A DNA stretch of 64,000 nt from Mesohalobacter halotolerans. GTDB lineage: Bacteria; Bacteroidota; Bacteroidia; Flavobacteriales; Flavobacteriaceae. Every line of letters begins with the position of its first letter. The stretch's first letter is position 1. The stretch spans positions 868,001-932,000 of the forward strand of contig NZ_SWMU01000001.1 of NCBI RefSeq assembly GCF_006120725.1, written 5' to 3'. The translations under genes were made by a program, and so were the position numbers. Under the pieces are notes generated by a model that did not search any database, was not told the origin of the DNA, and worked only from the letters and a program-made list of their open reading frames with translations. Shown here one piece after another: positions 1,307-5,769 of the stretch.

Positions 1307-3934
1307 TTAAAGATAGTGTTTAGCCTCTTCTAGCGCTTTAGAAATACCTTCAGGATGTTTACCACCTGCTGTAGCAAAAAAGGCTTGTCCGCCACCTCCG
1401 CCATGAATGTGTTTTCCAAGTGACTTAATGATTTTTCCAGCGTTATAGTTCTGCTCTTCAGCTAAATCTTTTGAGATAAAACAACTTAAAATAGCTTTTC
1501 CGTTTTGTTTAGAACCTAAGATGAGAAACAAATTTTCTATTTCGCCACCGAGTTGAAAGGCGACATCTTTCATCGCTTTAGGGTCTAAATCGACTTGTTT
1601 AGCAATGAAATTGACACCGTTTATAGTTTCGGTCTTATGTTTTAATTCAGTTTTTATGGTTTTAACTTTTTCCTGAAGCAGTTTTCGATTTTCATTCTTG
1701 AGCACTTCAAATTCTTGAATTAATTTGTCTATATGTTCAACAGGCTTTTGATTAGATCCTACGAGTTCTGATATTTGTTGGATTTCATTATCTTTCTGCT
1801 TGAGGTATTGTCTTGCAGCCTCATTGGTTATGGCTTCTATCCGTCTTACACCTGAGGCCACAGAAGATTGACTTATGATTTTAAAATACCAAATGTCTGA
1901 GGTATTGTTGACGTGTGTTCCTCCACAAAGTTCAATAGATTCCCCAAATTTTATGGTGCGCACTTTATCACCGTATTTTTCGCCAAATAACGCCATAGCA
2001 CCCTGAGCTTTTGCTTCCTCAAAATCTGCTTTTCGATTTTCTTCTAAATGAATATGGTCAGCAATCATCGTGTTGACTGTGTTTTCAATTTTTGAAATTT
2101 CTTCCGGTTTGAGTTTTTCAAAGTGTGAAAAATCGAATCGCAAGTAGTTTTCATTGACCAAGGATCCTTTTTGCTCGACATGACTCCCCAGGATTTTTCG
2201 TAGAGCATAATGTAATAAATGGGTTGCAGAATGATTACACGCTGCAAAAAACCGTTTTTCAGAATCAACCCTGGCAATAAACTTTTGATCTATGTCAGAA
2301 GGGAGTTTTTTGGTAATGTGTATAATATCACCGTGCTCATTTTTGGTATCCAGAACTTCTATACTTTCATTTTCAAACTTAAGTATGCCGCGATCGCCTA
2401 CCTGTCCACCGCCTTCTGGATAAAAAGGGGTTTGGTCAAAGACCATTTGATAGCGTTGTCCCTCTTTTTTACTTTTCAGGCTACGATACTTAAGAATTTG
2501 TGATTGCGTTTCTAACTGGTCATAGCCCACAAACGTAGGGGTTGAGTCTGTTTTTACAATATTCCAATCACTCGTTTTACTTTCAGATGCATCTTGAGAG
2601 CGCTTTTTTTGTTGCTCTAAGGCCAACCTGAATTCTTCTTCATTATAGTTATAGCCTTTTTCGCTTAAGATTAAAGCCGTTAAATCAATTGGGAAACCGA
2701 AAGTATCAAAGAGTTCAAAAGCTTTGTAACCTGAAATAGTTTTAGATGAACTTTCTTTGATGATATCCTCAAGCCGTTTTAATCCTTGAGATAAAGTTTT
2801 AAGAAAACTATGTTCCTCTTCCTTGATGACTCGCTGGCATAGTATATTTTGCTTGGTTAATTCCGGATAATCTCCGCCAAGCTGCTGGGTTAAGACTTCA
2901 ACTAATTTAAACATAAAAGGCTCGTTCATGTCCAAAAACGTATAGGCATACCGCACGGCACGTCTTAATATACGTCTGACGACGTAGCCAGCGCCATTAC
3001 TGGAAGGCAACTGTCCGTCTGCTACACAAAACGTCACTGCTCTAATATGATCTGCAATCACTCTTATAGCAACATCTATATCTTCATTTTTACCGTAACC
3101 TTTGTTTGAAATACTTTCAATTTTTTTGATAATCGGCTGAAAAATATCGGTGTCGTAATTAGATGTTTTACTTTGAAGCAATCGACATAGTCGTTCAAAG
3201 CCCATGCCGGTGTCCACGTGTTTTTGGGGTAAGTTCTCTAAGCTCCCATCAGCTTTTCTGTTGAATTGAATAAAAACTAAATTCCATATTTCAATGACCT
3301 CAGGATGGTCCTTATTAATGAGGTCTTTTGCAGGGATTGCTTTTTTATCAGCTTCAGATCTTAAATCAATATGGATTTCAGACGAAGGCCCACAAGGCCC
3401 TTGATCGCCCATTTCCCAAAAATTATCTTTCTTATTACCGAGAACTATTTTTTCGTCATCTACCAAAGTTTTCCAATGCGTTATGGCTTCTTTATCTTTT
3501 TCTAAACCGTCTTCTGGATGACCTTCAAAAACAGTAGCGTATAGATTGTCAGGATTAATTTTATAAACTTCAGTTAAAAGCTCCCAAGCCCACTGAATAG
3601 CTTCACTTTTAAAGTACCCGCCTGCCGGATGGGCAGGATCGCCAAAGCTCCAATTGCCCATCATCTCAAACATCGTATGGTGGTAATGGTCTTTACCAAC
3701 TTCTTCAAGATCGTTGTGTTTGCCAGAAACCCTAAGACATTTTTGTGTATTATAAACCCTAGCGTGCTCAACTTTTTCAGTTCCTAAAAAAATAGACTTA
3801 AACTGATTCATCCCCGCATTAGTAAACATTAATGTTGGATCGTCTTTAAGAACAATTGGCGCTGATGCTACGAAATTGTGGTTTTTCTGCTTAAAAAAAT
3901 TAAAAAATTTAGCTTTGATTTCTTTTGAATTCAT
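1307..3934 (-). CDS. alaS: Alanine--tRNA ligase with a 7-residue in-frame insertion
   Basis: Charges tRNA-Ala with alanine. I start it at the ATG at 3934 (MNSKEIKAKFFNFF); a TTG six bases upstream in frame is less likely. At 875 aa it is full length: class II catalytic core with HHTMFEMMGNWSFGD, editing domain with HSATHLLH and the CGGTHV zinc/editing motif, and a C-Ala domain with a glycine-rich stretch ahead of FFATAGG. In the core, residues 100-106 (PAHPAGG) separate FGD from YFK. These are contiguous in E. coli AlaRS (FGDYFK), so this is an insertion in a highly conserved part of the enzyme; see the repeat at 3617-3637. It heads an operon with the phosphoesterase and PPK2. Confidence 0.97.
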   Translation of the reverse strand: MNSKEIKAKFFNFFKQKNHNFVASAPIVLKDDPTLMFTNAGMNQFKSIFLGTEKVEHARVYNTQKCLRVSGKHNDLEEVGKDHYHHTMFEMMGNWSFGDPAHPAGGYFKSEAIQWAWELLTEVYKINPDNLYATVFEGHPEDGLEKDKEAITHWKTLVDDEKIVLGNKKDNFWEMGDQGPCGPSSEIHIDLRSEADKKAIPAKDLINKDHPEVIEIWNLVFIQFNRKADGSLENLPQKHVDTGMGFERLCRLLQSKTSNYDTDIFQPIIKKIESISNKGYGKNEDIDVAIRVIADHIRAVTFCVADGQLPSSNGAGYVVRRILRRAVRYAYTFLDMNEPFMFKLVEVLTQQLGGDYPELTKQNILCQRVIKEEEHSFLKTLSQGLKRLEDIIKESSSKTISGYKAFELFDTFGFPIDLTALILSEKGYNYNEEEFRLALEQQKKRSQDASESKTSDWNIVKTDSTPTFVGYDQLETQSQILKYRSLKSKKEGQRYQMVFDQTPFYPEGGGQVGDRGILKFENESIEVLDTKNEHGDIIHITKKLPSDIDQKFIARVDSEKRFFAACNHSATHLLHYALRKILGSHVEQKGSLVNENYLRFDFSHFEKLKPEEISKIENTVNTMIADHIHLEENRKADFEEAKAQGAMALFGEKYGDKVRTIKFGESIELCGGTHVNNTSDIWYFKIISQSSVASGVRRIEAITNEAARQYLKQKDNEIQQISELVGSNQKPVEHIDKLIQEFEVLKNENRKLLQEKVKTIKTELKHKTETINGVNFIAKQVDLDPKAMKDVAFQLGGEIENLFLILGSKQNGKAILSCFISKDLAEEQNYNAGKIIKSLGKHIHGGGGGQAFFATAGGKHPEGISKALEEAKHYL
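3617..3637 (-). repeat. 21-bp palindromic insertion inside alaS
   Basis: On the plus strand the block contains CCTGCC, a 5-nt loop, then GGCAGG, a 6-bp perfect hairpin preceded by CCCG. It is exactly 21 bp, keeps the frame, and encodes PAHPAGG between the FGD and YFK of the AlaRS core. Both arms and the flanking GCCTGCCG also occur in the hairpin at 5704-5727, inside a broken tRNA copy. That points to a dispersed palindrome rather than normal protein drift. The exact borders are uncertain by a few bases because no empty site is available in this window. Confidence 0.7.
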
Positions 3935-3973
3935 GGACAAAAAGGCTTAAGCTGTGTAAGTATTGAATTTTAT

Positions 3974-5418: not shown

Positions 5419-5491
<73 letters not shown>

Positions 5492-5499
5492 CTACAAAG

Positions 5500-5524
5500 C
5501 CACTTCATTAAGAAGTGGTTTTTG
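5500..5524 (+). terminator. Terminator of the initiator tRNA
   Basis: CCACTTC, a 5-nt loop ATTAA, GAAGTGG, then a T-run. The 19-bp hairpin core is exactly the reverse complement of the core at 5746-5764, so the two hairpins differ only in loop orientation and bracket the broken tRNA copies. Confidence 0.8.
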
Positions 5525-5532
5525 TTTTACAT

Positions 5533-5575
5533 GGTCGCTGGTTCCCCCGATGCTTTGGGGCAGTCCCCGCTACTA
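5533..5575 (+). repeat. Broken tRNA-fMet 3' copy with hairpin insert
   Basis: GGTCGCTGGTTC (5533-5544) repeats the tRNA T-arm start, and CAGTCCCCGCTACTA (5561-5575) repeats its 3' end. Between them the five bases GAGTC of the T-loop are replaced by a 16-bp palindrome, CCCCGATGCTTTGGGG (5545-5560; 6-bp stem allowing one G-T pair). The 5' half of the tRNA is absent, so this cannot make a tRNA. Confidence 0.8.
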
Positions 5576-5578
5576 ATT

Positions 5579-5609
5579 AGCCATTAGCCTTTAGCTAGTG
5601 GCTTTTTTT
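5579..5609 (+). terminator. Terminator-like hairpin after the first broken tRNA copy
   Basis: A 10-bp stem (AGCCATTAGC with GCTAGTGGCT, one G-T pair), a 5-nt loop, then seven T. It suggests that the unit tRNA plus terminator was duplicated, with this hairpin changed in sequence. Confidence 0.6.
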
Positions 5610-5640
5610 ATTAGGTAAATTAAAAAAATATCTGTTAGGA

Positions 5641-5739
5641 CGAGTCCAGAAGTCTCGGGATATCCTGAGCGCAGCTTAACGAAGCCGAAGCAAGTCCAGC
5701 CAGCCTGCCGACTAGCAAGAAGGCAGGTCCCCGCTACTA
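5641..5739 (+). repeat. Second broken tRNA-fMet 3' copy with two inserts
   Basis: CGAGTCCAG (5641-5649) matches the tRNA T-loop. After it come 43 bp holding CTCGGGATATCCTGAG, a near-perfect palindrome, and GCTTAACGAAGC. AGTCCAG is then repeated (5693-5699), followed by a hairpin CCTGCC/GGCAGG (5704-5709 and 5722-5727) and TCCCCGCTACTA (5728-5739), the tRNA 3' end. The repeated AGTCCAG on both sides of the first insert looks like a target-site duplication. The second insert shares its arms with the insertion in alaS. Confidence 0.72.
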
Positions 5740-5740
5740 A

Positions 5741-5769
5741 AAAAACCACTTCTTAATGAAGTGGTTTTC
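5741..5769. terminator. Bidirectional terminator between tRNA remnants and transaldolase
   Basis: Hairpin CCACTTC-TTAAT-GAAGTGG with A-run before and T-run after, able to work on both strands. It can end the minus-strand transaldolase transcript (stop at 5799). Its core is the inverted copy of the hairpin at 5500-5518. Confidence 0.7.

Follow-up and report, generated by a model that had tools for sequence, protein, structure and literature searches.

The alanyl-tRNA synthetase gene (alaS) of Mesohalobacter halotolerans carries seven additional codons within the catalytic core of the enzyme, and these are very probably a pasted copy of a 21 bp palindromic repeat dispersed among genomes of the family, set between a GAT and a TAY codon. 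The insert is not a one-off: the same alaS junction has been filled in several separate lineages. In-frame palindromes are already known in Rickettsia and in REP-rich bacteria of other groups. The surprise here is the recurrence at one nucleotide, with a seven-codon unit placed in the catalytic core of a universal enzyme in several lineages, one of which holds it twice.

The gene lies in the window, the whole stretch of 64,000 nucleotides that we analysed (Table 1). Its identity is supported by AlaRS matches in 59 of the 60 genomes searched, the window's own genome (G000) included, and its product also matches solved AlaRS chains. An ATG two codons inside the TTG is the likelier start. The translation reads FGD-PAHPAGG-YFK, with seven added codons in an open frame of 877 aa. 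The first-pass annotation had described these as 21 bp inserted in frame inside FGDYFK and containing a CCTGCC/GGCAGG hairpin, a description borne out by the sequence, by the translation and by comparison with shuffled sequences. The core of the insert is a 17 bp hairpin with 6 bp arms and a 5 nt loop. Its fold alone is not extreme, as 15 of 200 shuffles fold equally well. The pattern CCTGCCN5GGCAGG has a single occurrence in the window and was absent from all 100 shuffles. When the loop is allowed to span 3–14 nt, the window contains two such hairpins (3621–3637 and 5704–5727) against a shuffled mean of 0.01.

Table 1. Features of the window around alaS and the neighbouring tRNA-Met gene
Feature	Position	Strand	Basis or remark
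alaS, alanyl-tRNA synthetase	1307..3940	minus	ORF list; 877 aa counted from TTG
21 bp palindromic insert in alaS	3617..3637	minus	Coding strand CCTGCCCATCCGGCAGGCGGG, translated PAHPAGG; plus strand CCCGCCTGCCGGATGGGCAGG
Hairpin arm CCTGCC	3621..3626	plus	Pattern search and folding
Hairpin arm GGCAGG	3632..3637	plus	Pattern search and folding
tRNA-Met (CAT)	5419..5492	plus	ARAGORN
Partial 3′ tRNA-Met copy, T-arm palindrome CCCCGATGCTTTGGGG	5533..5574	plus	Direct repeat D6; boundaries by eye
Second partial 3′ tRNA-Met copy, broken by further palindromes	5640..5742	plus	Direct repeat D6; boundaries by eye
CCTGCC-N12-GGCAGG hairpin inside second tRNA-Met copy	5704..5727	plus	Pattern search

The seven residues are missing from the five solved AlaRS chains that were aligned (15 chains matched); in chain 1riq, FGD ends at residue 101 and YFK begins at 102. 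Judging from the position of motif 2 in the AlaRS structure, the insert would lie in the short connection just after the motif 2 strand and before the next helix. The assembly of the window's genome (2.65 Mb in 11 contigs) is 99.99% complete and a single alaS was found in it, so the enzyme with PAHPAGG presumably works. Four congeners of this genome have alaS loci that match Psychroflexus montanilacus, P. gondwanensis, P. lacisalsi and P. salarius in exact 60-base stretches.

Comparison with close relatives establishes that the seven residues are an insertion. A codon alignment of alaS from genomes G000, G013, G010 and G023 contains a clean gap, of 21 bp for G000 or 42 bp for G013, and in the two genes without the insert GAT (AAC in G023) is directly followed by TAY. 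No target duplication is visible at the site in this four-genome alignment. The sister gene lacking the insertion that the first-pass annotation had proposed to look for is that of G010, which has an empty site. On the AlaRS tree G013 and G010 are sisters, with G000 outside both, and the empty site of G010 beside the carrier G013 therefore implies precise loss, a short local exchange, or separate gains in G000 and G013. The alaS of G013 holds a 21 bp unit that differs by one base from that of G000 and is split after base 12 by a second unit, CCTGCCTCGCCGGCAGGCAGG, which recurs unchanged at four further places in G013, one of them inside the isoleucyl-tRNA synthetase (IleRS) gene. As the nested copy is unlike the interrupted copy in subtype, it did not arise by slippage of the latter.

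Among 110 AlaRS loci, a set that includes five duplicates, eight had an insert exactly at the junction, 99 plainly lacked one and three were not matched by the motif; these three (L069, L082 and L005, the last at a contig end) also read FGDYFK. The residues are therefore not shared by all relatives. A 63-residue query spanning the site matched 387 of 397 genomes of the family, and at least 18, G000 included, had a longer span, with 7 extra residues in 15, 8 in two and 11 in one; the figure of 18 is a lower bound, taken from the best-scoring part of the 387 matches. A sample of 395 genomes of the class (367 with a match) added at least three carriers among the matches listed, again a lower bound: G521 and G735 with 7 residues and G450 with 10. 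G813, a congener of G521, had a span of 168 and no insert. All 27 inserts read at the site share one junction and 23 are exactly 7 residues long. In a few carriers H, Q, L, N or K takes the place of the D that precedes the insert.

On an AlaRS tree of 161 rows, 27 of them with inserts, the distribution of carriers needs 15 changes, at least eight of which are forced by starred branches. This tree was built by a quick method with SH-aLRT support only, after the insert residues had been taken out and seven rows, duplicates or truncated ones, excluded. Carriers are clustered, as shuffled labels need a mean of 25.2 changes, and under midpoint rooting they form 19 insert-only groups.

Across 167 alaS loci (396,942 nt, five duplicates), matches to the repeat with at most three mismatches fell at the site in ten and elsewhere in none, and four matches with four mismatches lay at other places or in another register. 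In none of the ten does the reverse orientation fit better than the forward one, and all share one phase. The final four bases are CGGG in all five alaS copies with at most one mismatch versus 20 of 66 other copies, a set that actually includes the alaS copy of G195; this bias may reflect the protein (GG over GR) or the DNA.

Beyond alaS, the 21-mer CCTGCCNNNCCGNCAGGCRGG is a dispersed repeat. Allowing one mismatch, it is present in 96 of the 397 family genomes, whereas the reversed control gave 0 in each. A slightly stricter pattern with up to two mismatches gave 18 matches in G260, 11 in G195, eight in G013, six in G026 and three in G000, and none in G010, G023 or G124. G521, which belongs to another family of the class, has 14 repeat places besides its alaS insert, G813 has no match, and G613 and G758 have none and one, respectively. 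Whether the DNA of the insert would match anything else had been posed as a check by the first-pass annotation, and copies were found at other places in the window's own genome and in related genomes. Apart from alaS, the 21-mer occurs in 12 of 18 insert-carrying family genomes versus 84 of 379 others (Fisher P = 1e-4), the latter being genomes in which no alaS insert was seen among the matches listed, some of the 379 having fallen outside that listing. The six family carriers without any 21-mer at up to one mismatch are G124, G331, G247, G215, G391 and G151.

The units themselves also point to local origin. The alaS insert of G195, CCTGCCACGCCGGCAGACGGG, is an AC(G/A) variant, as are nine of the ten other copies listed for that genome and none of the 35 listed for other genomes in the same comparison; the variant is also present among the repeats of G378, from the same genus. 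Carrying its genome's own typical variant, the G195 insert must have been inserted locally. The alaS inserts of G260 and G521 are near-consensus units. Units listed without mismatch start with CCTGCC and finish with CRGG, both ends being fixed by the pattern searched; the bases beyond the ends were read as well. CCTGCC...GGCAGG hairpins were found in 20 of 27 genomes, with the reversed control present in three, but some resemble intrinsic terminators because T runs follow them; as the hairpin counts include such cases, we relied on the 21-mer instead. Overall, the repeat is multi-copy, has been gained relative to close relatives and is present in other genes, as is typical of dispersed palindromic repeats. 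Being open in all six frames was considered as a special property of the repeat and rejected: it applies to 30 of 53 variants, and to 64% of 21-mers drawn at random with a comparable G+C content.

The clearest copy in another gene is that of the G013 IleRS, which reads QFK-SPLKSPLT-PASPAGR-PKRGTN, with the 21 bp unit in frame within another palindromic repeat. In the IleRS gene of G010 this host palindrome is uninterrupted, SPIKSPLTPEGG, and thus represents an empty site for the 21 bp unit. The host palindrome is common to G013 and G010; neither palindrome is present in G000 or in the remainder of the 25 other IleRS genes (two of 30 loci were unreadable). The variable IleRS linker filled in G013:C96 (L304) and G010 (L305) carries yet another in-frame palindrome in G042 (L306), from another family.

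DUF6090 proteins offer a further set (L334, L335, L337 and L353 of G004, G024, G025 and G023, respectively), in which an N-terminal linker is longer than in paralogues by seven residues in G004, G025 and G023 and by 13 in G024. The inserts of G004 and G024 are in-frame hairpins with CCTGCC/GGCAGG arms, one hairpin being seemingly nested in another in G024; in G025 and G023 the inserts have changed too far to be assigned. A DUF5712 protein of G260 (L162) also contains the repeat in frame, but was set aside as its homologues are too diverged to give a clean empty site. The frame and strand of the repeat vary by gene, giving PASPAGR in IleRS (L178) and LPAGEAG in DUF5712 (L162), and are constant in alaS. 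Other palindromes, and the D-loops of tRNA copies, harbour several copies of the repeat. Landing in hairpin loops was considered as a rule and rejected, since effectively five of 47 sites have P≤0.05 after correction for a double count of L293. At L176 (G260:C23) and L170 (G013:C81), the 21 bp unit lies within CGTCATTGCGAG...CAATCT repeats, which we presume to resemble the CGTC REPs of other bacteria.

Many inserts at the alaS site are less recognizable. Measured against synonymous recodings drawn at random for their own peptides, the 27 inserts have a joint hairpin excess (combined P = 0.001), and two of the 27 reach P = 0.05 singly. The 17 inserts without a recognizable CCTGCC show no joint excess over what their peptides allow (combined P = 0.10), and for these the argument for a palindromic origin is their common position and, in most cases, common length. 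About ten inserts are the 21 bp repeat; the others probably began as palindromes as well, judging from their place and length. Two sister species, G009 (L022) and G011 (L024), have 21-base alaS inserts with arms other than CCTGCC that still form a 20 bp palindrome; between them the pair at positions 3 and 18 is changed on both sides, at synonymous positions.

We propose that a resident repeat would be copied into alaS at the GAT/TAY boundary, with no target duplication. Because the unit is 21 bp long the reading frame is kept, and a small Pro/Gly loop after the motif 2 strand would be tolerated. The insert would then be near-neutral, and may drift and decay into an ordinary seven-residue loop. 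Weighing against this reading are the 17 unrecognizable inserts, the six family carriers that lack the 21-mer, the missing Y1 transposase hit in the carriers G000 and G124, and the loss, exchange or double gain that the empty site of G010 demands. Copies may arrive or survive here more often, permitted by the conserved DNA, the protein loop or both; the reuse of one nucleotide position out of about 2,600 means that a DNA preference, a protein tolerance or both single out the spot. More tentatively, and as a possibility that we do not favour, the sequence GGNGAT^TAYTTYAAR of alaS could be an attachment-like target for 21 bp palindromic mobile repeats across Bacteroidia, used in one orientation and phase, favouring the CGGG-ended subtype and allowing self re-entry and precise exit. 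If so, the catalytic core of an essential enzyme would be a safe harbour for selfish DNA.

A single junction and a prevailing length of seven residues could also reflect shared ancestry. A single ancient insertion in AlaRS, lost many times and palindromic by chance or through later gene conversion from resident repeats, also agrees with the clustering of carriers on the tree (15 changes rather than 25.2) and with the similar diverged peptides of related carriers, for example PTDSSVG with PKDASVG and PAHPESG with PTNPESG. We nevertheless regard it as improbable: at least eight changes are forced and close sisters differ, the near-perfect repeats of G000, G260, G195 and G521 would not outlast long neutral decay, the G195 insert bears a local variant, and the insert of G521, from another family of the class, would demand an extremely ancient ancestor. 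One insertion could instead have spread between lineages by horizontal exchange of alaS segments, in keeping with the patchy distribution of inserts and with the insert-free gene of G010, whose eighth codon upstream of the junction is unlike that of both G000 and G013. The identity between G013 and G010, however, is even along alaS (0.84–0.93 across 15 windows of the gene), with no foreign tract at that scale, and the insert variants of G195 and G013 fit the local repeat family; exchange is thus a very remote explanation for the pattern.

Copying of a resident repeat, which we prefer, leaves room for different agents. REP-like mobilization, in which a Y1 transposase of the RAYT type works on hairpins in single-stranded DNA, would fit the clean insertion without target duplication, and a Y1 transposase domain match was found in eight of ten genomes examined. 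Such an agent is unlikely, though, given that the insert carriers G000 and G124 gave no Y1 transposase hit, that a repeat lies nearby at just two of 12 Y1 loci, that the ends of the listed units have no GTAG/CGTC tag and that hairpin-loop landing is weakly enriched (six of 48 sites with P≤0.05, one place being counted on both strands). The 21 bases might also be skipped in translation or cut from the mRNA, leaving an enzyme with an ordinary FGDYFK, and translational bypass of palindromes in mitochondrial genes of Magnusiomyces yeasts is cited in PMC6649704. We find this scarcely credible for alaS, as all 27 inserts are multiples of three and stop-free, albeit in a search that favoured open frames, and many older inserts retain a Pro/Gly-containing seven-residue loop.

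Short G+C-rich palindromes that lie in frame in an A+T-rich gene are familiar from the GC clusters of yeast mitochondrial VAR1, although these belong to an organelle and differ from the alaS repeat in sequence and length. The Rickettsia palindromic elements (RPEs), to whose behaviour the first-pass annotation had likened the insert, are described in PMC2229807 as palindromic repeats of about 105–146 bp with a long stem-loop, specific to Rickettsia, that are inserted in frame in genes encoding conserved proteins and also occur in intergenic DNA and RNA genes; the gmk product with an RPE insert remains active (same source). The likeness holds for the in-frame entry of a palindromic repeat into a conserved protein gene. 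It does not extend to size or host, nor is the alaS insert an isolated oddity: the repeat is 21 bp long with a 6 bp stem, occurs in the Psychroflexus group and relatives and uses one recurrent site. PMC3733652 names the smaller RPE-4 and RPE-6 as CGTC repeats, describes GTAG/CGTC REPs as 20–40 bp palindromes found inside ORFs, including tRNA synthetase genes of three species, and reports that the recB genes of two Xanthomonas species carry REPs in nearly the same position. REPs of these superfamilies bear the tetranucleotide at one end of the stem-loop and go with a RAYT gene, which GTAG-type repeats flank. The alaS repeat differs from them in its untagged ends (CGTC being only internal, in some units), in the missing Y1 hit of G000 and the scarcity of repeats near the 12 Y1 loci of other genomes, and in a same-site recurrence that extends over many genera. 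Nematomorph mitochondria, according to PMC6649704, have inverted repeats translated within coding genes, which are perfect, reach 142 bp per arm and are apparently maintained; repeats of the alaS type share the translation within genes, but are short, dispersed and in many cases decayed-looking. As regards the traits of MITEs, the alaS site has no target duplication, and the search for a parent transposon covered Y1 and GIY-YIG genes. Among the papers listed by a literature search, none reported this 21 bp repeat or an alaS palindrome.

Taken as a whole, the alaS site suggests that a vital protein can offer a preferred spot where tiny selfish repeats get in and are tolerated. It makes testable both the existence of a target sequence for the repeats and the manner in which a seven-residue loop is tolerated beside a class II motif, and it offers an explanation for patchy seven-residue indels that would otherwise pass for clade signatures in this group's conserved proteins.

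The first-pass annotation had also seen the same arms and flanking sequence again at 5704–5727, within a broken tRNA copy. The broken 3′ copy of tRNA-Met and the hairpin arms are indeed present there, but only the arms are shared, the loop is 12 nt long and the hairpin is not the 21 bp unit. Two broken 3′ copies come after tRNA-Met in the window (5480–5742), interrupted by different palindromes. In G010 (L257), such a copy is separated from tRNA-Met by a GIY-YIG ORF, at about 2.5 kb from alaS. Short stand-alone GIY-YIG ORFs were likewise seen at tRNA genes at L243 (G013:C6), L242 and L248 (G000:C5:17798 and 18093), L253 and L255, as well as at L257, and of the 22 short loci of this type that were examined, a few of which neighbour one another, 11 had a tRNA close by. 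G000 has 13 GIY-YIG hits, part of them in longer proteins. G026 has two alaS copies (G026:C26 and G026:C102), with 71% and 54% identity to that of the window, and the second is near GIY-YIG ORFs. The clearest unit is L243, in which a partial 5′ tRNA copy with a palindrome is followed by a GIY-YIG ORF and then by an intact tRNA.
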